From: Symbiodinium sp. CCMP2592
Taxonomy: Eukaryota; Sar; Dinophyceae; Suessiales; Symbiodiniaceae
Assembly: GCA_905221615.1 (NCBI GenBank)
Contig: CAJNDT010001292.1
Location: 1-64,000, forward strand
DNA: 64,000 nt
Reading direction: 5' to 3'
Positions 19,241 to 64,000 of this stretch are shown here, piece by piece. The first letter of the stretch is position 1; every line of letters starts with the position of its first letter. A program made the translations under genes and the position numbers. The notes under the pieces were generated by a model. That model did no database searches. It was not told the DNA's origin and saw only the letters and a list, made by a program, of their open reading frames with translations.

Positions 19241-19303
19241 GTGTTGCTGCTACTGTCAAACCACAACCTACGCTGTCGCATCTTGGCGCTTGCGCCTTCT
19301 AAA
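19241..19303 (+). mobile_element. A5: 3' end of a class A element
   Basis: The 3' signature of class A is intact: subterminal CTACGCTGTCG at 19268-19278, then a hairpin GGCGCTTGCGCC, then TTCTAAA joined to TTTAGGG. The stretch before the inverted repeat is diverged from A2/A4, and no matching 5' end (CGACAGCGTAG) is visible to the left. It is either truncated, diverged or very long. Confidence 0.65.
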
Positions 19304-19333
19304 TTTAGGGTTTAGGGTTTAGGGTTTAGGGTT
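19304..19333 (+). repeat. TTTAGGG spacer between A5 and B1
   Basis: Four perfect TTTAGGG units ending GGTT, directly joined to the 5' end of B1. Confidence 0.9.
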
Positions 19334-21909
19334 CGCCAGCGCAGTTTTTGGACTGCGAGGGCGCCCCGGCCAATTCCGCTTTCAAGCTCTGTCTAGCTTT
19401 TTTTCCTTAGGGGGGTAGCCCTAATCCCTAAAGTTTGCCGGAAAAAATTTTTTGCTTTTTTCCATCCAGCCTCGCCCCGGCACCCCTAATCCCTAAAGTT
19501 TGGCGGAAAAAGTTTTTTGGTCCGCCCGGCCCCAGCCCCGGCCGCTTAAAGTTTGGTGGATGATTTGTCCACCCGGCCCAGGCCCCGGCACCCTCAATCC
19601 CTAAAGTTTGGCGGAAAAATCTTTTTTTGTCCACCCGGCCCCGGCCCCAGCGCCCCTACTCCCTGAAGTTTGGCGGAAAATGTTTTTGTTTGTCCCCCCG
19701 GCCCCGGCCCCGGCCAAAAGATTGGTGGATTTGTGTTTGCATTTTTTGTTAACCTGGCCCCGGCCCCGGCGCCCCTAATCCCTAACGTTTGGCGCAACAA
19801 AGCTGTTTTTGTCCACCCCCCGGCCCCGGCGCCCCTAATCCCTAAAGTTTTGCGGAAAAAATTGTTTTTTTGGTCCACCCGGCCCCGGCCCCGGCCTAAA
19901 GATTGGTGGATTTTTTTCGTACACACGGCCTCGCCCCTTTTCCCGATTTTTTGGCTGATTTTTTTTTGTCCACCCGGCCGGCCCCGGCGCCCCTAATCCC
20001 TAAAGTTTGGCGGAAAAAGCTGTTTTTTGTCCACCCGGCCCGGCGCCCGTAATCCCTAAAGTTTGGCGGAAAAAGTTTTTTTGTCCGCCCGGCCCCAGCC
20101 CCGGCCGCTTAAAGTTTGGTGGATGATTTGTCCACCCGGCCCAGGCCCCGGCACCCTCAATCCCTAAAGTTTGGCGGAAAAATCTTTTTTTTGTCAAACC
20201 GGCCTTAACCCCGGCGCCCCCTTCTGACCCTCCCTGCACCTTTTCACGTGGCCCCCTTCCCACGAAACCCTTTCCCATGAAGCGCCCTGCCCCTGCATCC
20301 CTGGCTTTTTGGGCCCTTTGGCTGGTGCCCCTGAGCCCCCGAACTACGTCCAAGCCCCCAAACTGGGTTTTTTGCTTTTTCCACAAATTTGGTTTTTCTT
20401 TTTGCAGGCCCCCTCCAAGCCCCCAAATTGTGTTGGCGTTCTCCAGCGATGTTGTGGCCATCGCAAGCTTGTAACGGCGAGGAGTTGTCTTTGCGCTTTT
20501 CATACACATGGAGCAACCTTTTTTCCAGTTGGCTGGAGAAGCGTTCAGCTTTTTCGGCCAAGAACTCTCACCTGAAGTGCGGCGTTCGACTCCCCAACAA
20601 GCAAAACAAACTCCACTTGCAGTGCCGGGTACCGCCGCGATTAGCGAAGCAGTTCTCACCTGAAATGTGGTGTTGGATGCCGCAATAGGCAAAGCATTTC
20701 GAGAATTTTCCGAAGCTTCAACCTTTCACACGGCGCTGCAGAAAATGGTTCCACGCCAACTTGGAGCCGGACGTTGCAGCACGCACATCATGCGAAATTG
20801 CTCCGACGCTCCACTACAACCTACATGCCGGTAAAAAGGGAATGTGTTTGAGGTTGGGCTGGGGCAGAGAGCCAGCACCTAGACACTGATTCTGCAATTG
20901 GCATACAGTCCATGCCATTGGCGCTAGCTATGAATGACTGAGCTGCTGGCTTCTAAGCCGAAAGGCAACTTGATCGAGGACCTTGCTCACGCCACCTCTG
21001 GAGCCATGGTCTAGCAAGTCGCAGGCTTTGTTCGCATGGAATTGGACTGAGAATTCACGTTTTCCGCGGCGGTGCTCATTCTATATGTCGTGTGAAAACT
21101 GCAGGATCATCTCCCCGGTAGCCCCTCTGATCCTTGTCTCGTCAGCGACCCTTTTGGCAGTGTCTGCTGCTAGCTGCTGGGATGGATGTGGTGAAGTATC
21201 GTGTTAACATACCACCCATGAGTAAGAATGCCATATTCAAGCAATATCATCCTATTACTTGCGAGGGAGCGAGCTGGAAGAGACAAGACATCAGTTGCGG
21301 GCTCGCTTCTGTCTCCCGGCTCTGCATTCCGGACAGAATTTCGGCCGCGTCAGTCCAGGTGCATGAACCTCTTGATACAGCTTCTGGCATTTTGGGTTCT
21401 GGCACTTGTGCCATCCAGTGGACGCCCTGGTGCCACGGACTGCGCAATTGGAGCAATGGCTACTGCTATCATTGCCCGCTGCACGAAGGCCAAAGGGTTG
21501 GTCGCAGCCCCTGCACAGGAACCAACCTCCACGCAGGCGCTTCGCTTTGGGACGCACCTCCTCTTGGCAGTCCTTGCATACCGCACAGCCGCGTGGCAGG
21601 GTGCACATGCTGGACTCGAAAGCATTGGCAAGCTTGGTCGTTCCGCACGTATAGCATGTTAAAGTGCGTTGATTGCGAGCACAATTCGTACACATCTTCT
21701 TGGCATCCGGTGCTTCTTGGCGCAGCTGCGCTACTGGGAATTGCTTGGGTCATTTCAATTTACTTAAACCGTTCAGTTGCACTTAGAAAAAACTTGTCAA
21801 TTTACTTAAACTGCCCTATGGTCGACCGTTGCTTGCCTTAAATCCTGCGTACCTGCTGAACATCAAACCAGAAGCTGCGCTGGCGCACCTTCGGCGCAAG
21901 CCGTCTAAA
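19334..21909 (+). mobile_element. B1: class B element, 2576 bp
   Basis: The 5' end CGCCAGCGCAG follows GGTT. Its exact inverse CTGCGCTGGCG (21875-21885) lies 24 nt before the CTAAA terminus, with a CGGC-GCAA-GCCG hairpin between. This asymmetric inverted-repeat layout is that described for Helentron/Helitron2-like elements. The first 0.9 kb is an array of 70-90 bp units containing CCCTAATCCCTAAAGTTTGG and CCACCCGGCCCCGGCC. Unique sequence follows, then the antisense Cys-rich gene near the 3' end. B1 and B2 are head to tail and nearly identical. No Rep or helicase is present, so the element is non-autonomous. Confidence 0.8.
21291..21695 (-). CDS. Cys-rich zinc-ribbon-like protein carried by element B (copy 1)
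   Basis: 134 codons from an ATG. Sixteen cysteines, mostly in pairs: CTNC (2-5), CYTC (14-17), a CAVC-x2-C group (about 36-42), CRGC (about 60), CSNC (about 82), then HKC/PKC and FCPEC. A basic tail RAGRQKRARN follows. The spacing K-L-x-N-A-F...CAVCKDC resembles, from memory, the Stc1-like zinc domain common in dinoflagellate predictions. Zinc binding is likely and the target unknown. The same frame is open upstream of the ATG for 17 codons (PKQFPVAQLRQEAPDAKK) to a TGA, so a 5' exon may exist. The gene is antisense to the element and ends 0.6 kb short of its 3' terminus as read on the plus strand. The longer 235-aa frame on the opposite strand is a shadow. Confidence 0.65.
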   Translation of the reverse strand: MCTNCARNQRTLTCYTCGTTKLANAFESSMCTLPRGCAVCKDCQEEVRPKAKRLRGGWFLCRGCDQPFGLRAAGNDSSSHCSNCAVRGTRASTGWHKCQNPKCQKLYQEVHAPGLTRPKFCPECRAGRQKRARN

Positions 21910-21925
21910 TTTAGGGTTTAGGGTT
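21910..21925 (+). repeat. TTTAGGG spacer between B1 and B2
   Basis: Sixteen bases, TTTAGGGTTTAGGGTT: the minimal link between two head-to-tail B elements. Confidence 0.9.
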
Positions 21926-24501
21926 CGCCAGCGCAGTTTTTGGACTGCGAGGGCGCCCCGGCCAATTCCGCTTTCAAGCTCTGTCTAGCTTTTTTTCCTT
22001 AGGGGGGTAGCCCTAATCCCTAAAGTTTGCCGGAAAAAATTTTTTGCTTTTTTCCATCCAGCCTCGCCCCGGCACCCCTAATCCCTAAAGTTTGGCGGAA
22101 AAAGTTTTTTGGTCCGCCCGGCCCCAGCCCCGGCCGCTTAAAGTTTGGTGGATGATTTGTCCACCCGGCCCAGGCCCCGGCACCCTCAATCCCTAAAGTT
22201 TGGCGGAAAAATCTTTTTTTGTCCACCCGGCCCCGGCCCCAGCGCCCCTACTCCCTGAAGTTTGGCGGAAAATGTTTTTGTTTGTCCACCCGGCCCCGGC
22301 CCCGGCCAAAAGATTGGTGGATTTGTGTTTGCATTTTTTGTTAACCTGGCCCCGGCCCCGGCGCCCCTAATCCCTAACGTTTGGCGCAACAAAGCTGTTT
22401 TTGTCCACCCCCCGGCCCCGGCGCCCCTAATCCCTAAAGTTTTGCGGAAAAAATTGTTTTTTTGGTCCACCCGGCCCCGGCCCCGGCCTAAAGATTGGTG
22501 GATTTTTTTCGTACACACGGCCTCGCCCCTTTTCCCGATTTTTTGGCTGATTTTTTTTTGTCCACCCGGCCGGCCCCGGCGCCCCTAATCCCTAAAGTTT
22601 GGCGGAAAAAGCTGTTTTTTGTCCACCCGGCCCGGCGCCCGTAATCCCTAAAGTTTGGCGGAAAAAGTTTTTTTGTCCGCCCGGCCCCAGCCCCGGCCGC
22701 TTAAAGTTTGGTGGATGATTTGTCCACCCGGCCCAGGCCCCGGCACCCTCAATCCCTAAAGTTTGGCGGAAAAATCTTTTTTTTGTCAAACCGGCCTTAA
22801 CCCCGGCGCCCCCTTCTGACCCTCCCTGCACCTTTTCACGTGGCCCCCTTCCCACGAAACCCTTTCCCATGAAGCGCCCTGCCCCTGCATCCCTGGCTTT
22901 TTGGGCCCTTTGGCTGGTGCCCCTGAGCCCCCGAACTACGTCCAAGCCCCCAAACTGGGTTTTTTTGCTTTTTTCACAAATTTGGTTTTTCTTTTTGCAG
23001 GCCCCCTCCAAGCCCCCAAATTGTGTTGGCGTTCTCCAGCGATGTTGTGGCCATCGCAAGCTTGTAACGGCGAGGAGTTGTCTTTGCGCTTTTCATACAC
23101 ATGGAGCAACCTTTTTTCCAGTTGGCTGGAGAAGCGTTCAGCTTTTTCGGCCAAGAACTCTCACCTGAAGTGCGGCGTTCGACTCCCCAACAAGCAAAAC
23201 AAACTCCACTTGCAGTGCCGGGTACCGCCGCGATTAGCGAAGCAGTTCTCACCTGAAATGTGGTGTTGGATGCCGCAATAGGCAAAGCATTTCGAGAAGT
23301 TTCCGAAGCTTCAACCTTTCACACGGCGCTGCAGAAAATGGTTCCACGCCAACTTGGAGCCGGACGTTGCAGCACGCACATCATGCGAAATTGCTCCGAC
23401 GCTCCACTACAACCTACATGCCGGTAAAAAGGGAATGTGTTTGAGGTTGGGCTGGGGCAGAGAGCCAGCACCTAGACACTGATTCTGCAATTGGCATACA
23501 GTCCATGCCATTGGCGCTAGCTATGAATGACTGAGCTGCTGGCTTCTAAGCCGAAAGGCAACTTGATCGAGGACCTTGCTCACGCCACCTCTGGAGCCAT
23601 GGTCTAGCAAGTCGCAGGCTTTGTTCGCATGGAATTGGACTGAGAATTAACGTTTTCCGCGGCGGTGCTCATTCTATACGTCGTGTGAAACTGCAGGATC
23701 ATCTCCCCGGTAGCCCCTCTGATCCTTGTCTCGTCAGCGACCCTTTTGGCAGTGTCTGCTGCTAGCTGCTGGGATGGATGTGGTGAAGTATCGTGTTAAC
23801 ATACCACCCATGAGTAAGAATGCCATATTCAAGCAATATCATCCTATTACTTGCGAGGGAGCGAGCTGGAAGAGACAAGACATCAGTTGCGGGCTCGCTT
23901 CTGTCTCCCGGCTCTGCATTCCGGACAGAATTTCGGCCGCGTCAGTCCAGGTGCATGAACCTCTTGATACAGCTTCTGGCATTTTGGGTTCTGGCACTTG
24001 TGCCATCCAGTGGACGCCCTGGTGCCACGGACTGCGCAATTGGAGCAATGGCTACTGCTATCATTGCCCGCTGCACGAAGGCCAAAGGGTTGGTCGCAGC
24101 CCCTGCACAGGAACCAACCTCCACGCAGGCGCTTCGCTTTGGGACGCACCTCCTCTTGGCAGTCCTTGCATACCGCACAGCCGCGTGGCAGGGTGCACAT
24201 GCTGGACTCGAAAGCATTGGCAAGCTTGGTCGTTCCGCACGTATAGCATGTTAAAGTGCGTTGATTGCGAGCACAATTCGTACACATCTTCTTGGCATCC
24301 GGTGCTTCTTGGCGCAGCTGCGCTACTGGGAATTGCTTGGGTCATTTCAATTTACTTAAACCGTTCAGTTGCACTTAGAAAAAACTTGTCAATTTACTTA
24401 AACTGCCCTATGGTCGACCGTTGCTTGCCTTAAATCCTGCGTACCTGCTGAACATCAAACCAGAAGCTGCGCTGGCGCACCTTCGGCGCAAGCCGTCTAA
24501 A
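21926..24501 (+). mobile_element. B2: class B element, 2576 bp
   Basis: Same length and termini as B1 (5' CGCCAGCGCAG at 21926; subterminal CTGCGCTGGCG at 24467-24477). Differences are a few point changes and 1-bp indels, for example in the T/C-rich tract near 22960. The 3' flank is TTTATAGAAATTGTT instead of pure TTTAGGG; this matches class D sequence, so B2 or its neighbour A1 entered a D-type end. Confidence 0.8.
23883..24287 (-). CDS. Cys-rich zinc-ribbon-like protein carried by element B (copy 2)
   Basis: Protein identical to the copy in B1 (134 aa, 16 Cys). Identity of all intact copies reflects recent duplication of the element and by itself says nothing about selection. Confidence 0.65.
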   Translation of the reverse strand: MCTNCARNQRTLTCYTCGTTKLANAFESSMCTLPRGCAVCKDCQEEVRPKAKRLRGGWFLCRGCDQPFGLRAAGNDSSSHCSNCAVRGTRASTGWHKCQNPKCQKLYQEVHAPGLTRPKFCPECRAGRQKRARN

Positions 24502-24649
24502 ATTTATAGAAATTGTTCGACAGCGTAGCGGTCGCCCCGGGCAACTTGAGGGTGCACTTCTTTCATAGGGGGCTGCTTCTTGGCCCGTAAAACCCATCGC
24601 CTAGGGTTTTCCTATGGCCCAAACCCGCGGCCCAACCAAACCCGTGGCC

Positions 24650-25002
24650 GCAGTCCCTGCCCGAAACTCTCCCGCACCCCTCCGCGCGCCCCACGCTGCA
24701 CCCGCCGCGCGTGCAGCCCTTGCGCCCGCCCGACCCGCGCCCCCACCCGCGCCCCGCGCCCCGCGCCCGCGCCCCGTTCCCGCGCCCGCTTCTGGCCCCG
24801 CGCCCCGCGCCCCCCCCGCGCCCCGCACCCCCCCCCCCCCCCCCCCCCGAGCCCCGCGCCCCACGCCCGCACCCGCGCCGGTCCCGCCACGCACGCGGTG
24901 TGGCCGCACATGTGCCCCCCACACCCCCCGCTCCAGCGCGCTCCCTGCACCCCCCCCGCGCCCCGCGCCCCGCGCCCCCACGGCCTCCCGCCGCACCCGC
25001 CC
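24650..25002 (+). repeat. Extremely C-rich core of element A1
   Basis: Nearly pure GCGCCCCGCGCC-type sequence, including a run of more than 20 C. Overlapping ORFs in four frames (Pro/Ala/Arg or Gly/Ala/Arg) are compositional. The minus strand is G-rich with potential to form quadruplexes. Confidence 0.8.
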
Positions 25003-25275
25003 TAAACCCTAAACCCTAGCACCCTAAACCCTAAACCGTCGACTAAGGCGCCGAACCTCAACCCAACACCCCAAACCCTCAACCCTGGGGCCGGAAACCC
25101 TAAACCCAAGGCCCCAAACCCTCAACCCTAGGGCCTTAAACCCTAAACCCTAGGGCCCTAAACCCTAAACCCTAGCACCCAAACCCTAAACCCTCGGCCC
25201 CGAAACCTTAAACCCAAGGCCCCGAAACCCTAAACCCAAGGCCCCAAACCTTCAACCCTAGGGCCCTAAACCCTA
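25003..25275 (-). repeat. CCCTAAA-type array inside A1, left part
   Basis: CCCTAAA words with fillers TAGCACC, TCGGCCCCGAAA and CAAGGCCCC. TTTAGGG is on the minus strand, opposite to the spacers outside the element. The array resumes at 39341 after the 14-kb insertion. Confidence 0.85.
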
Positions 25276-25472
25276 CCTGTAGATACCTCCGGCTGGAAAA
25301 AACCAGACGCTCGAAGAGGATATAAAAATCCGACCTCGCTAAAAAACCGACCGCTTTACAACCTCCGAAAAACACTAATTTCCTGGTGGGACAGGCTGCT
25401 TGAAAAAACCCGAAGCAAAACCCTCTTAAGTCTTGAAAGATCCGGAGAAACATCGCGAGTCCGCCATGTTTT

Positions 25473-27274
25473 TCAGCTGAGAGCCCTGTTCACGGCCACC
25501 AAGTATCTCTGAAGAGTCCTCAGCATTAACTGCTGATTTCCTACTCTTCTGCTCATCCGGGACATGTGTCCTACAAAATCTTCATCCATCTGCACTGATG
25601 TGGCCAGTGGGCTTCTCACCCAAGCATGCCTCTTTGCCGCCAAGATAATCTCTCTCCAACAGTGATGTAGATAGTGGCTCTTGGGCATCATCGGGTATCG
25701 TGATCTGGACTGTTGGAGTGTTACAAAAGCCAGCTTAGCATACGATTGTAAGCACCGGAGACCAGACAGACCAATGGATCTCGCTTCATCAGAAGAAAGC
25801 CAATAGCCGCCTTGGTAAGACAGCCTAAAAGCTCGATTGCCAGCAGCGATACAAATAAGAGCCTCCTCAGTAATCTCTGTTGGAACGTAGAGGGCCCGAT
25901 CTCGCAAGAAGTCTTCCAGAAAACAAAGCAGGACACGAGTGTCCGAGAACTTGCTCCAGCATCCAACTGGAAGAACTTGGTAGCCCTGCTCCATCCCGAA
26001 CAGTTCCCGGTCAAAGTGGCCAATATGCAATGTCAGTTTTGACTTCTTTCGCCAGGTTTCATAGGCTTGCTGAAGAATGCTAAATTTGAAATCAATAGAT
26101 CCCACTTCCAGATTGGGTAGTATTTCGGCCACTGTCGAGGCTGCAATATGTTTCCCTGTTCCTCCGTGAAAATTGTGCCAGATATCGAACTCAAGAAATC
26201 GTGGCGCTTTCAAGTCGTCTTCGTCAAAGCCTAGCCCTCGCAAAAAAGGTGGCAGCTGCGACCAAGGCAGAGTCTCGTCGATCGTGTAGCTCCACTCCGG
26301 ATGTAGGTTCAGATTTTCAAAAGGCACGTTTGGGGTTCCTGCTAGGCATCTCCAACAGATGCCATGGGAAACATCCTCCCCAGTCGATTTGGCTACCCTG
26401 GCGAACGATCGCTCTAAGTGGGCGACCTTGGCCAAAAACGGGTTGTCTCCAGTAAGGCCAACACAAACAGCATGATAATGCTTCCCATCAGCATCCAAAA
26501 AACCCTTTGTTTCAAGTCGCTCGTACGATGCAGCAATGTTGCGGCCAATTGCATCCCAAACAGTTTCTGCATTTTTTCCGTACACTGCCTTTGGAACTGC
26601 AACATGAAGAAACCTGGAGGTCATGCTAGCAGACATATTAAGGCCCATTCGGTTTTTCTGCTCGGCCTCGGAGTGCATTTCCTGAAACTGTCGTGTCCCG
26701 AAGCCCACACATCCACGAAGTGACCATATCAAGATGCCCTTTTTTTTCTTGCCCCTGCCTTCATCTCCATGAGAAAAGAACGGAATCGTTCTCTCCAAAG
26801 AGATGTCTCCACGGGCGGCAGCCTTGAAAGCTCGATGCCCAGGCTCCACTTTGGCGAACCGTCGCCACCACTCCAACAAATTATTCTTTCCATGTAGAAA
26901 CTCCAGTTTAGCATCCCGGGCCAAACAAGATACCATTTTGTATGGATCCAACCACGGAATCTGTCTGATGCCAGTGCTTGTTTCAACCGGAATGTAGTCG
27001 ATGTCTACTTGCAAAGTATGTCCGCTTTGCTGCAACCTGTCATTTATGATGCTCGGAGATGCAAAGTCATACTTTATTTTATTTTCAACCGAGAACAACC
27101 AAACCAGTAGAATCGAACTAGTTGTACCAAGAGGCTCCCGAAAGGCATTCTTCTCAGCTCGATGCTTGCTTCCTTTGGCAAGCCTAGCATAAATCGATTT
27201 CGCAGAAGGCGGGTCCGGCTCTTCCAAGCGTGATTTCGCATCGGCCCAGATGCTCTCCCCTGTTGCCTTGGGTA
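25473..27274 (-). CDS. Large dinoflagellate-type protein of unknown function, candidate transposase of the 14-kb element
   Basis: The frame is open for about 600 codons, from just after a TAG (about 27275) to the stop at 25473. There is no ATG at the front, so a short upstream exon is likely (an ACAG/GGGAG acceptor is possible). Visible features are KNAFREPLGTT near the start, IPWLDPYKMVSCLA (about 105), HGICWRCLAG (about 305), FLEFDIWHNFHGGTGKHIAA (about 360-380), VLPVGCWSKFSDTRVLL (about 440) and a basic end DFVGHMSRMSRRVGNQQ. The Asp/His box and PVGCW box resemble, from memory, a highly repeated Symbiodiniaceae protein family without assigned function. It starts about 200 bp inside the left end of the insertion, a transposase-like position. 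Catalytic residues are not proven. Confidence 0.6.
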
Positions 27275-28088
27275 GCTATTATTTGATTTCCTTAAAATGA
27301 TACATCGGAGGAAGTTGGTATACTTAACGGGTTTGGGGGTCATACTTAAAGGGTTTGGGGGTCTGGGGAGGGGTGACTGACTGAATTCTGGAGAGGGTTA
27401 TATGTGCCACCCCGGGGACCATAAGGATAACTACTAGAAAACATATAAAGTCAATTATCCTTAAATTCAATAGCACCGAAAATAATACCTTGAAAGCCCC
27501 AAACCAAATCTCAACAACCCCAATGCCCAACCTCGGTCCTAACTTCTACGATCCCAACTCCCTTGGTTACTAGGCAGAACCTTAGAAAGCTAAGCCAACT
27601 CCAGAAGAGCCTTATACAACTATGAGACAATATCCGAGGTTGTTGTACCCCGATACAGCCTGTATAACCTTCTCTTATATTAGAAACCCATCCTCGACCA
27701 AGCCATCCTCCCAGCGATCCCACGACTGGCCGTGGAGCCCCTCGCGACAGCGACCTCGCCACATTCAGGCGCTGCAGTTCTCGACCTGGCTTTGGTTTTT
27801 TTTGCACGGCATAGTTGGAGGTTTGCAAGATAAAGGCATTCGAGGGCGTCTTTTTCTTTCACGGTAGCCACAGGGCCTCCCCGTAGGCCCGATCGACGAG
27901 CTTGCATGCACCCGTGCAGCAGACAGCTAGCATATCAACCCACACACACACACATACTGTAAGTTCCGTACATCGGAGAGCTGTGCTGATGACTTGCTGC
28001 ACAGGATCTCGCATGACAACATCATCTGCTAGGTGGCACAAACACTAGAACATCGTTTGATCTGGAACATCAGCAGCAAAATGCTGCT
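27275..28088. other. No gene seen
   Basis: Unique sequence with a GTTTGGGGGTC doublet near 27330-27365, a short CA repeat at 27943 and only short shadow ORFs. Confidence 0.6.
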
Positions 28089-28327
28089 TCACTTCTTCTT
28101 CGGCTTGCCTTTGGCAGCACATTTGGCCGCATGCTTAGGGCCTGGAGTAGCTGGACCCTTGGGTTTCGTAGAAGCCTTCTTCAACTTCTCGATATCACGG
28201 ATGAGGGGCCTCATCACGGGAGTGCGGATATTTCTGATACTTGCAGCTCGAAGGGTTACTCTGGGAATGTAAGATCCACACTGGCAAGAAGCTTCTTTCG
28301 AAGTTGCTTTGGCCATCCTTGACTTGC
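28089..28327 (-). CDS. Multi-exon gene, probable last exon
   Basis: Reads MAKATSKEASCQCGSYI, then VMRPLIRDIEKLKKAS and a Lys-rich tail ending CAAKGKPKKK and a stop. Lys/Ala/Pro-rich C-termini are usual in dinoflagellate nuclear proteins. I link it to the exon at 28552 because that exon ends in a GTGAGC donor. Confidence 0.4.
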
Positions 28328-28551
28328 ACATAAGCAAACCGACTATAAAGACAGAGCAAGCGGTGGAGAGTTAGGCAGAAAACAAGAAGAGGAAAGGGAG
28401 ATGGAGTGAGACAGAGAGAGTGAAAGAGACAGAGAGAAGCCAAGCAAAAAGATAAAGATAACAGCCGGGGTGCAGAACCGTAGCCTTCTTGATGTGATCT
28501 TGCATCTTGGACCTGAGTGTGGAAAGAAGCAACATCGCATCACAAGCTCAC

Positions 28552-28703
28552 TTGAACCGCTTCGTATTGCAAGCACGGCACGACAGATCATCAGATTCGC
28601 CATGGGCACTCAGGTTCGCCAGAACCTCGGCCAATGCATCGTAGACGGCCTCCATGTTGCCAGCCAGTCGGTCAAGCTCGCTTGCATGCCTGAGCAGATA
28701 TCG
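28552..28703 (-). CDS. Multi-exon gene, helical exon
   Basis: The minus strand reads RYLLRHASELDRLAGNM, then EAVYDALAEVLANLSAHG and SDDLSCRACNTKRF, ending at CAA/GTGAGC. The pattern is a short coiled-coil-like helix followed by a CxxC. It is in the same frame as the next block upstream, from which only one TGA (28704-28706) separates it. Confidence 0.45.
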
Positions 28704-28706
28704 TCA

Positions 28707-28898
28707 ATCGATAGGCACCGGCACCCCAAAACTTGACAGTCGTGCGGCTACCACCTGACGATGTTTTACAAGAGACCTTGCATGGGTGGGCTTCGGATCC
28801 GTGTTGTAGGGCTTCGTGAACTTCTCGGAAAGCTCGTGCATCTTGGCGATGGGGGGCAACAGGTCACTCATCGTTTTCTCGGCCCGTTCGCAGAGGTC
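28707..28898 (-). CDS. Multi-exon gene, exon after a CCGCAG acceptor
   Basis: Starts DLCERAEKTMSDLLPPIA and ends SSFGVPVPID before an in-frame TGA. Without that TGA it would run directly into the 28552-28703 block, giving one continuous helical segment. The TGA is either a nonsense mutation or part of a very short intron. Confidence 0.45.
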
Positions 28899-28976
28899 CT
28901 GCGGGGTATGGAGCATAGGGTTGCAAAACCTAAAGGCCCTCTGTACATACTATAAGTAATATATAGATATGTATGT

Positions 28977-28981
<5 letters not shown>

Positions 28982-29044
<63 letters not shown>

Positions 29045-29060
29045 CAGAGAGAGAGAGAAG
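28982..29060 (+). repeat. (GA)n microsatellite
   Basis: About 50 bp of uninterrupted GA followed by GACAGA variants. It lies in the intron between two coding blocks. Confidence 0.95.
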
Positions 29061-29077
29061 ATTGTATTGAATGCCAC

Positions 29078-30097: not shown

Positions 30098-30131
<34 letters not shown>

Positions 30132-31103: not shown

Positions 31104-31165
<62 letters not shown>

Positions 31166-36378: not shown

Positions 36379-36379
36379 C

Positions 36380-53952: not shown

Positions 53953-54679
53953 AACCCTAAACCCTAGGGCCCTAAACCCTAAACCCTAGCACCCAAACCC
54001 TAAAACCCTCGGCCCCGAAACCCTAAACCCAAGGCCCCAAACCCTCACCCCTAGGGCCCTAAACCCTAAACCCTCGGCCCCGGAACCCTAAACCCAAGGC
54101 CCTGAAACCCTACACCCAGGCCCCAAACCCTCAACCCTAGGGCCCTAAACCCTAAACCCTAGCACCCAAACCCTAAACCCTCGGCCCCGAAACCTTAAAC
54201 CCAAGGCCCCGAAACCTTAAACCCAAGGCCCCAAACCCTAGGGCCCTAAACCCTAAACCCTAGCACCCTAAATCCTAAACCCTCGGCCCCGAAACCCTAA
54301 ACCCAAGGCCCCAAACCCTCAACCCTAGGGCCTTAAACCCTCAACCCTGGGGCCCTAAACCTTAAACCCTAGCACCCAAACCCTCAACCCTCGGCCCCGA
54401 AACCCTAAACCCAAGGCCCCGAAACTCTAAACCCTCGGCCCCGAAACCCTACACCCCAGGCCCCAAACCTTCAACCCTAGGGCCCTAAACCCTAAACCCT
54501 AGCACCCAAACCCAAAACCCTCGGCCCCGAAACCCTAAACCCAAAGCCCCCAAACCTTAAACCCAAGGCCCCAAACCTTCAACCCTAGGGCCCGAAACCC
54601 TAAACCCTAGCACCCTAAATCCTAAACCCTCGGCCCCGAAACCCTAAACCCAAGGCCCAAAACCTTTAGGGTCTTAAAT
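53953..54679 (-). repeat. CCCTAAA-type array between B4 and B5
   Basis: About 0.73 kb, closely matching part of 49000-49380. The B element plus array unit (51378-54679, about 3.3 kb) is followed by a second such unit, suggesting segmental duplication. Confidence 0.8.
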
Positions 54680-57240
54680 TTTAGACGGCTTGCGCCGAAG
54701 GTGCGCCAGCGCAGCTTCTGGTTTGATGTTCAGCAGGTACGCAGGATTTAAGGCAAGCAACGGTCGACCATAGGGCAGTTTAAGTAAATTGACAAGTTTT
54801 TTCTAAGTGCAACTGAACGGTTTAAGTAAATTGAAATGACCCAAGCAATTCCCAGTAGCGCAGCTGCGCCAAGAAGCACCGGATGCCAAGAAGATGTGTA
54901 CGAATTGTGCGCGCAATCAACGCACTTTAACATGCTATACGTGCGGAACGACCAAGCTTGCCAATGCTTTCGAGTCCAGCATGTGCACCCTGCCACGCGG
55001 CTGTGCGGTATGCAAGGACTGCCAAGAGGAGGTGCGTCCCAAAGCGAAGCGCCTGCGTGGAGGTTGGTTCCTGTGCAGGGGCTGCGACCAACCCTTTGGC
55101 CTTCGTGCAGCGGGCAATGATAGCAGTAGCCATTGCTCCAATTGCGCAGTCCGTGGCACCAGGGCGTCCACTGGATGGCACAAGTGCCAGAACCCAAAAT
55201 GCCAGAAGCTGTATCAAGAGGTTCATGCACCTGGACTGACGCGGCCGAAATTCTGTCCGGAATGCAGAGCCGGGACAGAAGCGAGCCCGCAACTGATGTC
55301 TTGTCTCTTCCAGCTCGCTCCCTCGCAAGTAATAGGATGATATTGCTTGAATATGGCATTCTTACTCATGGGTGGTATGTTAACACGATACTTCACCACA
55401 TCCATCCCAGCAGCTAGCAGCAGACACTGCCAAAGGGTCGCTGACGAGACAAGGATCAGAGGGGCTACCGGGGAGATGATCCTGCAGTTTCACACGACGT
55501 ATAGAATGAGCACCGCCGCGGAAAACGTTAATTCTCAGTCCAATTCCATGCGAACAAAGCCTGCGACTTGCTAGACCATGGCTCCAGAGGTGGCGTGAGC
55601 AAGGTCCTCGATCAAGTTGCCTTTCGGCTTAGAAGCCAGCAGCTCAGTCATTCATAGCTAGCGCCAATGGCATGGACTGTATGCCAATTGCAGAATCAGT
55701 GTCTAGGTGCTGGCTCTCTGCCCCAGCCCAACCTCAAACACATTCCCTTTTTACCGGCATGTAGGTTGTAGTGGAGCGTCGGAGCAATTTCGCATGATGT
55801 GCGTGCTGCAACGTCCGGCTCCAAGTTGGCGTGGAACCATTTTCTGCAGCGCCGTGTGAAAGGTTGAAGCTTCGGAAAATTCTCGAAATGCTTTGCCTAT
55901 TGCGGCATCCAACACCACATTTCAGGTGAGAACTGCTTCGCTAATCGCGGCGGTACCCGGCACTGCAAGTGGAGTTTGTTTTGCTTGTTGGGAAGTCGAA
56001 CGCCGCACTTCAGGTGAGAGTTCTTGGCCGAAAAAGCTGAACGCTTCTCCAGCCAACTGGAAAAAAGGTTGCTCCATGTGTATGAAAAGCGCAAAGACAA
56101 CTCCTCGCCGTTACAAGCTTGCGATGGCCACAACATCGCTGGAGAACGCCAACACAATTTGGGGGCTTGGAGGGGGCCTGCAAAAAGAAAAACCAAATTT
56201 GTGAAAAAAGCAAAAAAACCCAGTTTGGGGGCTTGGACGTAGTTCGGGGGCTCAGGGGCACCAGCCAAAGGGCCCAAAAAGCCAGGGATGCAGGGGCAGG
56301 GCGCTTCATGGGAAAGGGTTTCGTGGGAAGGGGGCCACGTGAAAAGGTGCAGGGAGGGTCAGAAGGGGGCGCCGGGGTTAAGGCCGGTTTGACAAAAAAA
56401 GATTTTTCCGCCAAACTTTAGGGATTGAGGGTGCCGGGGCCTGGGCCGGGTGGACAAATCATCCACCAAACTTTAAGCGGCCGGGGCTGGGGCCGGGCGG
56501 ACAAAAAAACTTTTTCCGCCAAACTTTAGGGATTACGGGCGCCGGGCCGGGTGGACAAAAAACAGCTTTTTCCGCCAAACTTTAGGGATTAGGGGCGCCG
56601 GGGCCGGCCGGGTGGACAAAAAAAAATCAGCCAAAAAATCGGGAAAAGGGGCGAGGCCGTGTGTACGAAAAAAATCCACCAATCTTTAGGCCGGGGCCGG
56701 GGCCGGGTGGACCAAAAAAAAAATTTTTTCCGCAAAACTTTAGGGATTAGGGGCGCCGGGGCCGGGGGGTGGACAAAAACAGCTTTGTTGCGCCAAACGT
56801 TAGGGATTAGGGGCGCCGGGGCCGGGGCCAGGTTAACAAAAAATGCAAACACAAATCCACCAATCTTTTGGCCGGGGCCGGGGCCGGGTGGACAAACAAA
56901 AACATTTTCCTCCAAACTTCAGCCTGGGGCCGGGGCCGGGTGGACAAAAAAAGATTTTTCCGCCAAACTTTAGGGATTGAGGGTGCCGGGGCCTGGGCCG
57001 GGTGGACAAATCATCCACCAAACTTTAAGCGGCCGGGGCTGGGGCCGGGCGGACCAAAAAACTTTTTCCGCCAAACTTTAGGGATTAGGGGTGCCGGGGC
57101 GAGGCTGGATGGAAAAAAGCAAAAAATTTTTTCCGGCAAACTTTAGGGATTAGGGCTACCCCCCTAAGGAAAAAAAGCTAGACAGAGCTTGAAAGCGGAA
57201 TTGGCCGGGGCGCCCTCGCAGTCCAAAAACTGCGCTGGCG
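54680..57240 (-). mobile_element. B5: class B element, inverted, inside A6
   Basis: 2561 bp, same termini as B4, with small deletions (for example at 55274 and near 56920). The left flank GGTCTTAAA and right flank AACCCTAAACCCTAGGGCCC match an empty site GGTCTTAAACCCTAAACCC at about 57938-57956. This supports a real insertion with at most a 2-bp duplication. Confidence 0.8.
54894..55340 (+). pseudogene. Cys-rich zinc-ribbon-like gene, copy 5, frameshifted
   Basis: A 2-bp deletion near 55274 (GCCGGGACAGAAG where the others have GCCGGGAGACAGAAG) shifts the frame after FCPECRAG. The basic tail RQKRARN is replaced by about 20 unrelated residues. All cysteine pairs are kept, so the product might still fold. 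Confidence 0.6.
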
Positions 57241-58725
57241 AACCCTAAACCCTAGGGCCCTAAACCCTAAACCCTAGGGCCTTAAACCCTCAACCCTCGG
57301 CCCCGAAACCCTAAACCCAAGGCCCCAAACCCTCACCCCTAGGGCCCTAAACCCTAAACCCTCGGCCCCGGAACCCTAAACCCAAGGCCCCGAAACCCTA
57401 CACCCAGGCCCCAAACCCTCAACCCTAGGGCCCTAAACCCTAAACCCTAGCACCCAAACCCTAAACCCTCGGCCCCGAAACCTTAAACCCAAGGCCCCGA
57501 AACCTTAAACCCAAGGCCCCAAACCCTAGGGCCCTAAACCCTAAACCCTAGCACCCTAAATCCTAAACCCTCGGCCCCGAAACCCTAAACCCAAGGCCCC
57601 AAACCCTCAACCCTAGGGCCTTAAACCCTCAACCCTGGGGCCCTAAACCCTAAACCCTCGGCCCCGAAACCCTAAACCCAAGGCCCCGAAACTCTAAACC
57701 CTCGGCCCCGAAACCCTACACCCCAGGCCCCAAACCTTCAACCCTAGGGCCCTAAACCCTAAACCCTAGCACCCAAACCCAAAACCCTCGGCCCCGAAAC
57801 CCTAAACCCAAAGCCCCCAAACCTTAAACCCAAGGCCCCAAACCTTCAACCCTAGGGCCCGAAACCCTAAACCCTAGCACCCTAAATCCTAAACCCTCGG
57901 CCCCGAAACCCTAAACCCAAGGCCCAAAACCCCTAGGGTCTTAAACCCTAAACCCTAGGGCCCTAAACCCTAAACCCTAGCACCCAAACCCTAAACCCTC
58001 GGCCCCGAAACCCTAAACCCTAAAAACCCTAAACCCTCGGCCCCGGAACCCTAAACCCAAGGCCCCGAAACCCTACACCCAGGCCCCAAACCCTCAACCC
58101 TAGGGCCCTAAACCCTAAACCCTAGCACCCAAACCCTAAACCCTCGGCCCCGAAACCTTAAACCCAAGGCCCCGAAACCTTAAACCCAAGGCCCCAAACC
58201 CTAGGGCCCTAAACCCTAAACCCTAGCACCCTAAATCCTAAACCCTCGGCCCCGAAACCCTAAACCCAAGGCCCCAAACCCTCAACCCTAGGGCCTTAAA
58301 CCCTCAACCCTGGGGCCCTAAACCTTAAACCCTAGCACCCAAACCCTAAACCCTCGGCCCCGAAACCCTAAACCCAAGGCCCCGAAACCCTAAACCCTCG
58401 GCCCCGAAACCCTACACCCCAGGCCCCAAACCCTCAACCCTAGCACCCAAACCCAAAACCCTCGGCCCCGAAACCCTAAACCCAAGGCCCCCAAACCTTA
58501 AACCCAAGGCCCCAAACCTTCAACCCTAGGGCCCGAAACCCTAAACCCTAGCACCCTAAATCCTAAACCCTCGGCCCCGAAACCCTAAACCCAAGGCCCA
58601 AAACCCTCCCAGCCTAAACCCTAGGGCCCTAAACCCTAAACCCTAGCGCCCAAACCCTTCCCTAAACCCTCGGCCCCGAAACCCTAAACCCAAGGCCCCA
58701 AACCCTCAACCCTCGGGCCTTAAAA
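57241..58725 (-). repeat. CCCTAAA-type array, right part of A6
   Basis: Continues the same block cycle as 48775-51377 and contains the unoccupied counterpart of the B5 target. It ends in the class A tail AAAAGATTTCGGGCTTCCTG. Confidence 0.85.
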
Positions 58726-58814
58726 GATTTCGGGCTTCCTGCTTCCATTCTACTGTTAAACCAACAACCTACGCTGTCGCATCTTGGCGCTTGCGCCTTC
58801 TAAAATTTAGGGTT

Positions 58815-60146
58815 CGACAGCGTAGCAGTCGCCCTAGTCAACTTGAGGGTGCACTTCTTTCATAGGGGGGTGTGTCCTAAACCCAGAAACGAAATTTCGA
58901 AACGTAAACGTAGCCATCGCGATGGGTGGGTGGCCGGGGTGGGTGTTGGGTTGCGGGTTGATTGGTGGTGGGTGGTCCGTGCTTGGTGGTGGGTGCTGGG
59001 TGGCGGGTGGTGGGTGGTTGGTCGTGGGTCGTCGCCGCCCCGCGCCCCCCGCGCCCGCTCGCATCCAGCACAGCAGGCCCTGCGCGCCACGCCCCGAACC
59101 CCCCCCTGCACGCCCGTGCTCGCCCGCATTGCGCCCCTGCACGCGCCGCGCCCCGCGCCCCGTCCGCGCGCCCACTTCCCACCGGCCCGCCCCACCGCCA
59201 CACCGCCCACCGCCCACCGCCCCCCACCCACCGCGCCCCAACCCCCCACCGCCGCCACGTCGTCCACGTGGTCCCCCCAGCCGCCGCCCCCCCCACACCG
59301 CCCCCCACCCCCCCCACCAGCTTGGTCCGTAAAAGTCATCGCCATGGGTTTTCCCATGGCCCAAACCCGTGGCCCAAATGCCCCGGGCGCCCGTGCCCGC
59401 GCCCGTGCCCCCCCCCCGCGCGCACGCGCCCGCGCCCGCGCCCGCGGCCGCCCCCCGGCCTCGCCCCGCACCCCGCACGCCCCACGCCCCGCATCCTGCG
59501 CCCCCGCGCCCGGCCGCGCACCGCGCGGGCCTCCGCGCCGGTTGCCGCGGCCCCGCGCCCCCGGCCCCCCCGCCGCCAGCGACCATTCCGCGGCCCGCCC
59601 GCGCCCCGCGCCCCGCGCCGCACCCCCACACGCGCCCCGCCCGCACCGCCCCCCGGCCTGCACGCCCCCCCCGGCCCCAGCGCCCGGGCCACGAAGCCCC
59701 GCGCCCCGCGCCCGCTTCCCGCGCCCCTCCGCGCCACACCACCGCGCCCGACCGCGCGCTGGCGCCCCGCGACGCGCCGCGCACCTGCCCGCACCGCCCC
59801 CGGCCTGCCACGCCCCCCCGGCCCGCGCCCGCGCCCCACGGCCCATGCTCGCGCCAGAACCCGGTCCCGCACGCAGGCCGCCGCGCGCGCGCCGCGACCC
59901 ACGGGTCCGGCACGCGCGCTCCGCGCCCCGCCACGCCCGCGCCCGCGCACCGACGCCGCGCCCGCGCCGCGCCCCGCGCCCGCGCCCCCCCCCCCGCACC
60001 CGCGCCCGGAAGGATTTCGGGCAGAATTTCGGGTATTCGTGGAGGGGATTTCTGGCTTTCGTAGGAGAATTTCGTGCTTTTTGCTTCCATTCTACTGTTA
60101 AACCAACAACCTACGCTGTCGCATCTTGGCGCTTGCGCCTTCTAAA
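58815..60146 (+). mobile_element. A4: class A element, about 1.33 kb
   Basis: 5' CGACAGCGTAG at 58815, only about 10 bp after the end of A6; CTACGCTGTCG at 60111-60121; TTCTAAA end. The leader matches A6/A7 (GTAAACGTAGCCATCGCGAT). A GGTGGGTGGT-rich stretch and a C-rich core (59040-60000) follow. The very long Pro/Arg/Ala ORFs (up to 438 aa) over the core are compositional. Confidence 0.8.
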
Positions 60147-60193
60147 ATTTAGGGTTTAGGGTTGAGGGTTTAGGGTTTAGGGTTTAGGGTTTT
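60147..60193 (+). repeat. TTTAGGG spacer between A4 and C2
   Basis: Five TTTAGGG units plus one GAGGG variant. Confidence 0.9.
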
Positions 60194-60349
60194 CGCTGCG
60201 AGTGCGCTGTCGACCCCTCCATGAAGTGGTTGGGGTCGGCGCATGAGCTGCAATGCCCGCCCTCCCACCCTAATTTCAAACCTTGAACGGGTTTAGGGTT
60301 GTCTACCCCCCCAACCCCCCCTAGCAAGGGGGGCTTATATGGTTTAGAA

Positions 60350-60757
60350 GAAGGGCTAAAGCTTTGAGCAGTGATGTGCGAAAGTGCGGCCATGAGAGGG
60401 TGTTTGTGAAGGCAATTTGCATTTAGTCATATGCGTGACATCACAATTTGCGGTCGCCTGCAGCCAAAATTGCAGAAGCGAGACAACTTCACGGTCTATG
60501 CAACCATGTTGCTTGCAGTCTGTATGGTGGGATTAGCAGGCATCAAGACATATGCATGTGTCAAATCAATCGCGAGATGCGGCACAGCACAATTGCGAGC
60601 AACCTTGTTTTGCCGCCTCGAGCGCTGTCTGTCGTGGGCGTGCACTGTGCTCTACACTGCCCGCACAGCATATTGCTCGCAAAGCACGTGTGGTTGTGAA
60701 TTGAATGGCGACCTGTACATTTGACGCCCGCCGACGTGAAGCGAGTTTTAAATCAGA
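60350..60757. other. Unique sequence flanking the helicase fragment
   Basis: Present in C2 and absent from C1. The plus-strand 83-97 aa ORFs have no recognisable features. It would be the 3' flank of the helicase exon. Confidence 0.5.
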
Positions 60758-61770
60758 TCATTTGGCTGGCGTGAAATGATGCTCCGTGAAGATGCCCGCC
60801 AGCAGGAAGTCCTTGTAGTAACCGACCCTACTGATGGCCGTGTAGGCCGCGGCGGGAACCTTCGGGGCATGCAAGTAGACGACGACGTGAGGTAGCTCTG
60901 CACCCTGAAACTTGAGGATGGTGGACGCGTAGCCGGGCCGGACGGGATAGTAGACCAAGCCGCCCCTTTCCGGGTCCGTCCACGGCAAGACGCTGACCAC
61001 ATAGTCGGTGGCAGTCTTGACCAGGAGGCCGCCCGTGCCGTCGTCATACTTCAGGACGGTCGCCTCCATGCCGTTGATGAAGTCGATGTCTTTCCGCACG
61101 TTGCGTGTCAGGTAAACCTTCATGCCCTTGTAGACGGGCATGGCGGAGGGCTGCAGCTCGTCAGCCGGCTTCAGCTTGCCCTGCACGTAGTTGTCGGGGT
61201 TCGCGTCCACGTCAGCCGGCAAAGTCACAAGGGGAGCGTAGTCGGGAAAGAGGGCCTTCAAGGCAGCTGCGTTGACCGAAGCAGCACCTCGCCTGGTGCA
61301 CGTGAGGATGGTCGTGTGGGGCTTGGACTTCAGGAGCTTCCGCAGCCCCTTCACCGTGGGGGGCCCAGGCGGCTTCCAAGCCATCTTCTTGCGGAGCCGT
61401 CGCAAGAGCTGGGCGCTCGGCTTGCCGGTCCTGAGTACCGCCAGGAGCTTGGCATGCTCCTTGTCCTTGCACCGGTACATCTTGTGCAGGGCGACACGGT
61501 AGCAGTACAAGGTCCACAGGCGCGAGTGCCATGGCCGCTGCTCTCCCACGCCCGCCATCTGGTACCGGTCGCCCAGCAGCGCCAATGCGGGCACGCGGTC
61601 CGCAGCTACCCAAAGCTTCAGGATCTTCTCGAAGTTGACCATGTCAAGCTGCGAGAGCTCGTCGACGACGATGAGAGAGTACATGCCGAGCAAGGAAGCT
61701 TCTCCGTGCTCAGCAGCCTCATGAAGGCCGAAGGCAGCGTGGCAGGTGTCGATGTCCACATTGTGTGGCG
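60758..61770 (-). pseudogene. Helitron helicase C-terminal fragment inside C2
   Basis: About 333 residues of the SF1/PIF1-like helicase of RepHel proteins. Present are IDTCHAAF at the front; motif II VVDELSQLD; motif III LLGDRYQ; a middle with KGMKVYLTRNVRKD; motif V-like STILKFQGAELPHVVVY; and motif VI-like AAYTAISRVGYYKDFL before the stop. Walker A and everything before it are absent, because the homology starts exactly where C2 sequence shared with C1 ends (about 61770). The first 36 residues of the longer ORF (to 61867) are C-element repeat, not helicase. The reading frame is intact. It may be a captured last exon, or the remnant of an autonomous ancestor. Confidence 0.7.
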
Positions 61771-62014
61771 CCTCTGGGGCCTTTGCAGGGTTTACGGGGG
61801 AGGACCTTCTGCAGGCTTTGTGGGGGCCTTCTGGAAACCTTCTGGACACCTTTTTGCCCACCTTCAAAACTACTTAAAACCTATTGAAACAGCTACAAAA
61901 ACCAGATAAAACTTTAAAAAACCATTCTGAGCCTTTAAGAACCTCGCAAAACCTGCAAAAACCTCAACCAGACCAGGCCAACTTTTCCACAACACCAAAG
62001 TGAAAAACTCCAGG

Positions 62015-62415
62015 CGCAAAGTGACAATCTCCAGGCCCCCAAGTGACAATCTCCAGGCCCCAGAGTGACAATCTCCAGGCCCCAAAGTGACCCAAAGGGC
62101 CAAGTGGCTTCGGTGGGCTTTTGGCCTCTGGGCTCTGCAAGGTTTACGGGGGAGGACCTTCTGCAGGCTTTGTGGGGGCCTGCGCTAGGCTCTGGGTCCT
62201 TAATTTTAATTAGGTCCGGTTAATTTTAAGCTCCGGGCCTTTAAGTTTAGGCTCCGGGTCCTTAATTTTAGATCCGGTCCTTATTTTAAGCTCCGGTGCC
62301 TTAATTTTAGCCTGGCCCTTAATTTCGGGCCCTTATTTTAGGCTCCGGGTCCTTGATTTTAGGTCTGGCCTTAATTTTACGCTCCGGGTTCTTAATTTTC
62401 GGCTCCGGGTCCTTA
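62015..62415 (+). repeat. GTGACAATCTCCAGG units and CCTTAATTTTA array in C2
   Basis: Same modules as C1 46545-46990 with small differences. The half-site GTGACAATCT is that of the palindromes at 18.0-19.0 kb. Confidence 0.8.
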
Positions 62416-62489
62416 ATTTTAAGGTTCTTTAAAGGCAGCAAGGAGGAATCCAGGGGTCCCCGCCCATTTGCACCAACGTTTACCGGGGC

Positions 62490-63420
62490 CCAGAAATCTG
62501 GAAAATTGCTGCTGATTTTGCCTTGTTAAATTCTTTATATAAAATGTGCATTTTAATGAGGGCCAAGTGCCCAAGTCGAGGTCCCCCTCTTTCTTTTCGT
62601 GTGGCTCCACTAAACTCCGCCCTGGGACTCCTCGGTCCAGGGCTCGGAACCGTCCCTGAGCTTAGGATCGAAAAATGGGCCCTCGAGTGCTCGTGTGTGC
62701 CCAAAGGGGTCGGGGCCACATTCTGCAGCAAAACAGGGCCGTTCTTTTCGTATGCTGCCATTAAACCATCCAGTGTCGATGTGTGCCCAAAGCGGTCAAG
62801 GCAACATTCTGCAGCAAAACAGGGCCGTTTTTTTCGTGTGGCTCCACTAAACTCTTCCTTGCCCTCCAAAAATCTGGAAAATAGCTGCTGATTTTGCCTT
62901 GTTAAATTCTTTATATAAAATGTGCATTTTAATTAGGGCCAGGTGCCCAAGTCGAGGTCCCCCTCTTTCTTTTCGTGTGGCTCCACTAAACTGTGCCCTG
63001 GGGCTCCTCGGTCCAGGGCTCGGAACCGTCCCTGAGCGTAGGATCGAAAAATGGACCCTCGAGTGCTCGTGTATGCCCAAAGGGGTCGGGGCCACATTCT
63101 GCAGCAAAACAGGGCCGTTCTTTATGTGTGCCGCCACTAAACCATCCGGTGTCCATGTTTTGCCCAAAGCGGTCAAGGCCACATTCTGCAGCAAAACAGG
63201 GCCGTTCTTTTCGTGTGGCTCCACTAAACTCTTCCTTGCCCTCCAAAAATCTGGAAAATCGCTGCTGATTTTGCCTTGATAAATTCTTTATATAAAATGT
63301 GCATTTTAATTAGGGCCAGGTCCCCAAGTCGAGGTCTCCCTCTTTCTTTTCGTGTGGCTCCACTAAACTGTGCCCTGGGGCTCCTCGGTCCAGGGCTCGG
63401 AACCGTCCCTGGGTCTTTAA
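62490..63420 (+). repeat. Three tandem W-core units in C2
   Basis: Cores begin near 62495, 62872 and 63245, spaced about 375 bp as in C1. The overlapping 122-129 aa ORFs on both strands follow the repeat. Confidence 0.8.
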
Positions 63421-63559
63421 TTTAAGGCTCTTTAAAGGCAGCAGGGAGGATTTCAGGGGTCCCCGGCCGGTTTGCACCAAGGTTTACCGGGGCCCAGAAA
63501 GGAGGATTTCAAGGGTCCCCGGCCGGTTTGCACCAAGGTTTAGGGTTATTACTTTATAA

Positions 63560-64000
63560 GCTGACAGTAGCGGCCTATTCACTGGAGCCGCGTGGACCTG
63601 AGGTCCAGGACCTACGGCTTGCCTTTCGGCCATCGCCTACGGTCCGGCAGGCGCCTTCCGGTCCGCCTGCTGAAGGCCGACCCCTTGGCCGTAGCAGATA
63701 GTACTTCCGGGTCTTGGGGCCGGTCCTTAATTTGAGGTCCCAATCCAAAATTTTGGAGCACCGGTCCGCAATTTTAGGTTCCAAGCCTGAATTTTGCAGC
63801 CCCAGTCCTTCATTTTCGGTTCCAATCCTTAGTTTTAAAGCCTCGTCCTTAATTTGAAGTCTCAATCCTTAATTGTGGCCGACAGGTCCTTAATTTAAGG
63901 TTGGAGGATTTCAAGCGTGCCCGGCCATTTGCACCAAGGTTTACCGGGGCCCGGAAAGGAGGATTTCAAGTGTGCCCGGCCGGTTTGCACCAAGGTTTAG
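63560..64000 (+). repeat. C2 tail: CCTTAATTTTAGG-type repeats
   Basis: Begins with the C1-like GCTGACAGTAGCGGCCTATT segment, then degenerate GGTCCTTAATTTGAGGT units and a repeated CCCGGCCGGTTTGCACCAAG word. No gene. Confidence 0.7.

Follow-up and report, generated by a model that had tools for sequence, protein, structure and literature searches.

A chain of likely rolling-circle transposons at telomere-type repeats in Symbiodinium

Some retrotransposons are known to find a safe haven in telomeric repeats. Examples are the telomere-specific non-LTR (long terminal repeat) retrotransposons TRAS and SART, which occupy a fixed point and a fixed direction in the telomeric repeat and form stacks of elements; flies, for their part, lack telomerase. 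Helitrons are described as the main telomere component in Drosophila biarmipes (PMC10088271), and dinoflagellate telomeres are given as (TTTAGGG)n (PMC11508785, PMC11453091). Elements of the Helitron2 group, as laid out by Bao and Jurka (2013, PMC3627910), carry the 5' copy of their inverted repeat at 0-2 nt and the 3' copy about 20-30 nt from the element end. Here we describe a chain of elements from five families (A to E) in Symbiodinium sp. CCMP2592 (assembly GCA_905221615.1), on contig CAJNDT010001292.1 (C1292), and we consider it likely that they are Helitron2-type rolling-circle transposons, mostly non-autonomous, which target telomere-type DNA and form chains by successive insertion. 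The window analysed, positions 1-64,000, covers nearly the whole contig (66,683 bp). The chain is known from the assembled contig alone, and the genome-wide counts, which cover families A and B only, were made in the same 1.1-Gb assembly.

Insertion point and orientation

Mapped by their motifs on both strands, the elements run in the order A5-B1-B2-(D1 head)-A1-(D1 rest)-D2-A2-A3-(D3 head)-B3-(D3 rest)-C1-A7-A6 (with B5 and B4 inverted inside it)-A4-C2. All 15 elements named in a preliminary description of this DNA lie on the plus strand in the order it had given, joined by TTTAGGG-type links, and the 5' ends of A, B, C and three D copies in the window are all preceded by TT, as it had claimed. 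Every plus-strand tract of at least two perfect TTTAGGG units in the window (10 of 10) lies in a link between elements, and the 45 such tracts on the minus strand fall, by their coordinates, inside CCCTAAA-type minisatellites. Under looser criteria a further, degenerate run appears at 33.6 kb; it sits within foreign DNA inserted in A1 and is not a link. The 3' end of B2 abuts the first base of D1 with no link between them, and of the links in the window the longest, at 55 bp, precedes A6 and contains irregular units. Beyond the window, C2 extends to 64169. After it come a TTTAGGG run of 267 bp, irregular in one stretch, then a copy of the new family E, and then C3, which continues to the contig end.

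The insertion point is GTT^TAGG(G), where the caret marks the junction, and no target duplication is made. Two D elements are interrupted at GTT^TAGGG, one by A1 and the other by B3: the unbroken D2 reads TATAGAAATTGTTTAGGGTTCATG, while the left flank of A1 is TATAGAAATTGTT and its right flank TAGGGTTCATG, and after either insert D continues as TAGGGTTCA(T/G)G. When the flanks of A1 are joined, they match the head of D2 at 98.8% over 85 bp. The joined flanks of B3 match the head of D2 at 89.4% over 85 bp and the internal repeat unit of D at 93.5% over 93 bp, and those of B4 and B5 match a continuous minisatellite at 92-94%, as expected against many of its units. Insertion beside T without target duplication is thus seen for A1 in D1, B3 in D3, and B4 and B5 in the minisatellite. 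One surplus T remains at the seam in the A1 and B3 joins, and the terminal T's are not exactly assignable. The 3' ends vary (TCTAAA, TCTAAAA, TCTAAAATT), which resembles the variation in T number described for Helentrons (PMC4067079). The D word that the preliminary description had placed inside the links before A1 and B3 is therefore no part of a link but the head (13 bp) of a D element that the insert interrupts; further copies at 39923, 40028, 40389 and 40494 are internal D repeats, preceded by TTGC. The site rule exceeds chance: GTT^TAGG accounts for 43 of 4872 TT sites on the plus strand of the window and 245 of 4997 on the minus strand, and the rule is found again across the genome. From the nesting it follows that D1 is older than A1, D3 older than B3, A6 older than B4 and B5, and A1 older than the 14-kb insert within it.

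The elements had also been said to lie all in one orientation. This fails for the plus strand, since two copies, B4 and B5, run along the minus strand, but it holds along the TTTAGGG strand: both copies lie within the minisatellite of A6, whose minus strand reads TTTAGGG, and both of their 5' ends again follow TTTAGGGTT. Orientation is therefore fixed relative to the TTTAGGG strand and not to the contig strand. Contig C3172 likewise has an A element inverted within the minisatellite of another A. Among the first 100 places listed for each family, multi-copy contigs other than C1292 carry A on one strand only in 11 of 14 cases (P 0.013) and B on one strand only in 20 of 21 (0 of 20,000 simulations).

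Genome-wide recurrence, termini and the Rep gene

The sequence (TTTAGGG)3 occurs at 73,488 and 75,164 overlapping positions in the assembly (control, 0 and 1), which makes telomere-type DNA a widespread component of this genome that is present within a 4-Mb contig as well. On that contig, the loci L009, L014 and L016 contain short interstitial TTTAGGG tracts, some beside other inverted-repeat sequences (AAAGTTGG...CCAACTTT). The first 18 nt of A have 188 exact occurrences and those of B 117 (control, 0 for each). For A, flanks were examined at 80 of the first 100 listed places out of the 188: all 80 ends follow TT, 77 of them in the form GGGTT, one in the D head (ATTGTT, at A1) and two in another TT context. 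For B, 92 of the 117 ends follow exact AGGGTT, against about 0.03 expected by plain chance (117/4096). With C1292 set aside, 72 of 74 examined A ends come after GGGTT, in keeping with the preliminary description's suggestion of target-specific insertion into telomere-type DNA; it had held that mostly non-telomeric targets and random orientation would speak against this, and among the copies covered neither was seen. At the other terminus, the 11 distinct readable A and B 3' ends outside C1292 (larger loci L018-L050; same-sequence repeats and one end cut at the locus end, L019, excluded) all continue into (A)TTTAGGG, a few with a single unit.

The 3'-end motif of another element lies at most 300 bp upstream on the same strand in 44 of the 80 A copies, where the intervening stretch was not required to be purely telomeric. 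These neighbours are A (18), D-like (13), C (8), B (3) and another TCTAAAA end (2); none was seen in the remaining 36. B copies are 99.0-99.9% alike, a likeness that suggests recent activity or recent duplication. Another family, with the 5' end CAGCAGCTC(T/C), likewise follows TTTAGGGTT (L048:2755-2766, L050, L039, L025, L019), and the copy of family E (L017:437-1390) is flanked by telomeric runs. The A 5' pattern has no matches in viral contigs; the B 5' pattern has seven, which we judge to be chance (none with TTTAGGG, unrelated context). The A 3' pattern has no matches in the genome contigs searched. An apparent enrichment of A on short contigs, from a binomial test, was withdrawn: contig numbers are not ordered by length.

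Three families have the asymmetric terminal inverted repeats (ATIRs) of Helitron2. In five tested copies each, A has 11-bp repeats 0 nt from the 5' end and 27 nt from the 3' end, and B has 11-bp repeats 0 nt and 26-27 nt from the respective ends; D2 has a 16-bp repeat 1 nt and 20 nt from its ends. Compared with shuffled sequences, the predicted 5' hairpin is strong in C (Table 1) and E (z -5.34; 3' z -0.87) and moderate in B (z -1.91). The preliminary description had four classes obeying one rule, and this stands for the 5' ends in the window but not for the termini as a whole, C being without a clear inverted repeat at its ends. Both C and E show hairpins, but inverted repeats are unproven in them, and they are grouped with the others provisionally, by behaviour only. 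More generally, insertion is read here from patterns in the sequence.

The contig also contains a minus-strand gene (5967-5) with OTU, DUF6570 and Rep regions and an intron at about 2208-2066, before the motif AGYACDY. LHIHFQ is its HUH motif and AGYACDY its Y2 motif. The Rep exon alone scored no Pfam family, and its identity rests on the 66 homologues of its Y2 part, several of which carry PF14214 and the helicase family PF05970. The OTU/DUF6570 reading frame has 15 homologues, from Symbiodinium or Effrenium where named; the named homologues of the gene's Rep exons come from Symbiodinium, Effrenium and Amphidinium. By themselves these names point to a dinoflagellate host, most likely one of the Symbiodiniaceae. 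The gene runs off the contig start, and its helicase part would lie beyond it. No endonuclease family is among the domains listed for the 66 Rep homologues, which are proteins of limited length, many without any domain listed. Helicase or Rep-helicase relics lie antisense in B and C2: the relic in B matches P0052 at 31% in all five B copies, and that of B1 also matches P0040 at 38% and P0078 at 45%, while the best-scoring relative of the C2 relic is a Symbiodinium natans 'PIF1' (85%). No reverse transcriptase domain was found in the six window open reading frames scanned, a Rep alignment had no match in the PDB at E 0.01, and OTU and Rep queries found no relative in viral contigs. The sole match of the Rep alignment in genome contigs, a Rep relative (55%) on L001, a contig without TTTAGGG in an Alphaproteobacteria metagenome-assembled genome, is probably algal contamination. 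The region 2869..5967(-) is a possible autonomous partner of the chain, perhaps inside A5, to judge from position only.

The A sequence of A1 measures about 1.1 kb; the rest is an unrelated 14,065-bp insertion (25276-39340) inside its minisatellite. This insertion has imperfect inverted ends (CCTGTAGATACC / CCTGGAGATCC) with TA flanks on both sides, and a 600-aa minus-strand open reading frame within it has no Pfam match. The stretch 11864-19053 consists of short-palindrome arrays (GTCCTTTTCGGAAAAGGAC; AGATTGTCACGCCGTGACAATCT), whose tandemly repeated units measure 61, about 118 and about 485 bp.

Table 1. Features of the window (z, hairpin score against shuffled sequence; percentages, identity)
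Feature	Position	Strand	Details
Rep exon with Y2 motif AGYACDY	5..2065	-	66 homologues, several with PF14214 and PF05970
Rep exon with HUH motif LHIHFQ	2209..2778	-	tblastn to P0021, 73%; translation
OTU and DUF6570 part of Helitron-type Rep gene	2869..5967	-	Pfam OTU (PF02338) 1.2e-5, DUF6570 1e-10
A5 3' end	19268..19303	+	3' inverted-repeat copy, hairpin-like stretch, TCTAAA; A5 5' end outside contig
TTTAGGG link A5-B1	19304..19333	+	
B1	19334..21909	+	11-bp ATIR, 3' copy 26 nt from end; 99.0-99.7% to other B copies
Rep-helicase C-terminal Cys-rich domain relic in B1	21321..21749	-	tblastn match also in B2-B5
TTTAGGG link B1-B2	21910..21925	+	
B2	21926..24504	+	
D1 head (TATAGAAATTGTT), parted from D1 rest by A1	24505..24517	+	unbroken D2 at 40142
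A1 including foreign insertion 25276-39340	24518..39688	+	terminal TT assignable to either side
D1 rest	39689..40132	+	100% to D2 over 448 bp
Link D1-D2	40133..40141	+	
D2	40142..40598	+	16-bp ATIR ATAGAAATTGTTTAGG
Link D2-A2	40599..40628	+	
A2	40629..41512	+	
Link A2-A3	41513..41528	+	
A3	41529..42632	+	
Link A3-D3	42633..42648	+	
D3 head, parted from D3 rest by B3	42649..42661	+	
B3	42662..45240	+	
D3 rest	45241..45965	+	
Link D3-C1	45966..45988	+	
C1	45989..48275	+	5' hairpin z -4.86, 3' region z -2.47; about 95% to C2, C3 over shared parts
Link C1-A7	48276..48291	+	
A7, 3'-truncated A element (first 145 bp only), followed by telomeric repeats	48292..48436	+	100% to A4 over 145 bp
Telomeric run A7-A6	48437..48491	+	
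A6 with internal CCCTAAA-type minisatellite (~48764-58724)	48492..58805	+	
B4 in A6 minisatellite, on its TTTAGGG strand	51377..53952	-	
B5 in A6 minisatellite, on its TTTAGGG strand	54679..57240	-	
Link A6-A4	58806..58814	+	
A4	58815..60147	+	
Link A4-C2	60148..60191	+	
C2, running on to contig position 64169	60192..64000	+	
Helicase relic in C2, antisense	60761..61873	-	AAA_30 2.2e-7, AAA_19 3e-6, UvrD_C_2 0.0021 (below curated cut-off)

Growth of the chain and its alternatives

The opening and joining step of the known Helitron mechanism can be carried over to this site. Rep would open the target G-strand at GGGTT^TAGGG, between GTT and TAGG; the 3' side of ...GGGTT would receive the 5' end of the element (CGACAG, CGCCAG and so on) and TAGGG would receive its 3' end (...TCTAAA(A)(TT)), with no target duplication. 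Because each insertion leaves telomeric DNA beside it, the next element could insert there, in the same direction along the G-strand, and a head-to-tail chain would grow; an element whose own minisatellite has the site on its opposite strand would take up inserts in inverted orientation. The contig's own Rep, or a relative of it, may move A and B, with nicking presumably by the HUH-Y2 path, and C, D and E may move in the same way. Candidates for the source of specificity are Rep itself, its Cys-rich C-terminus, and exposed single-stranded G-rich DNA.

Several observations fit this reading poorly. B4 is followed by TAGTG and B2 by TATAG rather than TAGGG; two of the 80 A ends (L021, L094) sit in other DNA; and 25 of the 117 B ends are without exact AGGGTT, the flank having been examined for B3 of C1292 only. 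The counts do not represent independent insertions, as copies may have been duplicated with their flanks or lie on allelic contigs. The inverted repeat of C1 amounts to nothing beyond 6 bp, the 5' hairpins of A are no better than shuffled sequence (z 0.03 and -0.53), the 3' hairpins of A and B are hardly better (z -0.90 and -0.98), and D has no hairpins by this comparison (z 0.79/1.01). Only position links the Rep gene to the 3' end of A5, with 11 kb of repeats between them and the A5 5' end off the contig.

The same chain could be a record of former chromosome ends, each element having been attached by its 5' end to a terminal 3' overhang (...GGGTT-OH) and then lengthened at its 3' end by telomerase. 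All plus-strand elements point as growth towards one end would have them, the 267-bp TTTAGGG run after C2 is of the kind expected, and A7 (48292-48491), 3'-truncated, stops after 145 bp at GGGTT and passes straight into telomeric repeats, resembling a healed chromosome end. However, A1, B3, B4 and B5 have target sequence on both sides and are thus internal, inverted copies inside minisatellites cannot be end additions, and the contig ends are not terminal repeat runs (the left is the Rep gene and the right is C3), and we regard terminal growth as an unlikely origin of the chain. A related proposal, doubtful at present, is that these elements are a rolling-circle counterpart of the telomere-targeting retrotransposons and help to build chromosome ends, with the G-strand 3' overhang accepting the 5' end and telomerase capping the 3' end. 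Several families would then share the niche and turn telomeres or subtelomeres into transposon chains, and A7 would be a healed end.

Successive insertion must also be set against explanations that need no target choice, in which one old chain, made of an element with its TTTAGGG unit, was copied many times over through unequal exchange, segmental duplication or rolling-circle read-through. D1 and D2 do stand in tandem and are identical over 448 bp, and some B 5' ends are nearly evenly spaced, such as the five on one strand at about 1.97 kb in G000:C1993:6259-14035, a possible B tandem array. Multiplication of this kind is nevertheless very unlikely to have made the chain, given that A, B, C and D occur in mixed order with links of unequal length, two different families interrupt D at one and the same site, there are inserts in minisatellites, the left neighbours of A differ on other contigs, and A1 in D1 is already a clean single insertion. 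The mixed families and variable links also rule out rolling-circle concatemers, and TTTAGGG as part of the elements' own 3' end is ruled out by the target sequence directly after A1, B3, B4 and B5. An assembly that misjoined repeats at TTTAGGG runs might be suspected in a contig of C1292's modest length whose right end lies inside a repeat element, but the nested insertions have matching flanks and precise empty sites, and the same kinds of junction recur on many contigs, making this extremely improbable.

Comparison with known systems

Short asymmetric terminal inverted repeats are common to these elements and the Helitron2 group, and some Helitron2 members have a Rep gene antisense to the element, as the B and C2 relics suggest here (PMC3627910). 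Helitron2 elements also encode a Rep fused to a PIF1 helicase and have hairpins at both ends. The differences are that the available text of PMC3627910 gives no telomeric target ('telomer' occurs 0 times) and that the 5' hairpin of A is not distinguishable from that of shuffled DNA. Helentrons and their DINE-1 and HINE relatives, like the elements here, insert between T's with no target modification and with a variable number of T's at their ends, and they have an OTU protease and, in some copies, internal tandem repeats (Thomas et al. 2014, PMC4067079). An OTU cysteine protease domain is present in the gene at 2869-5967(-), which may belong to an A element. The label 'Helentron-like' in the preliminary description thus agrees with the ends of the A, B and D elements. 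The defining AP endonuclease domain, which Helentrons have fused to the Rep-helicase, was however not seen in a gene that runs off the contig, and the target here is telomere-type DNA, not the general T-rich DNA described for Helentrons (PMC4067079). FoHeli of Fusarium also has asymmetric inverted repeats and, in one case, an element inserted next to another, but it inserts after TNAT, and 'telomer' occurs 0 times in the part of PMC5148889 consulted.

In the literature searched, which had slight subscription coverage and was seen as titles, abstract starts and passages among the matches listed, no rolling-circle element specific for telomeric repeats was found. Within those sources, the nearest known cases are the Helitron-rich telomeres of D. 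biarmipes and the telomere-specific retrotransposons. D. biarmipes also has rolling-circle elements at chromosome ends, but the passages of PMC10088271 available to us mention no element inserting into a repeat made by telomerase. A rolling-circle DNA transposon with a telomeric target in more than one family, if confirmed, would mean that evolution can bring an enzyme of quite another kind into this niche, and would offer a natural sequence-specific rolling-circle system for study. It may also account for part of the many interstitial TTTAGGG tracts and broken assemblies in dinoflagellate genomes. With TRAS and SART, the elements described here share a constant register and direction within the telomeric repeat (for A, GGGTT at 77 of 80 ends; for B, AGGGTT at 92 of 117), a likeness of analogy and not of membership: those are non-LTR retrotransposons, whereas these are DNA elements with Rep-helicase relics.

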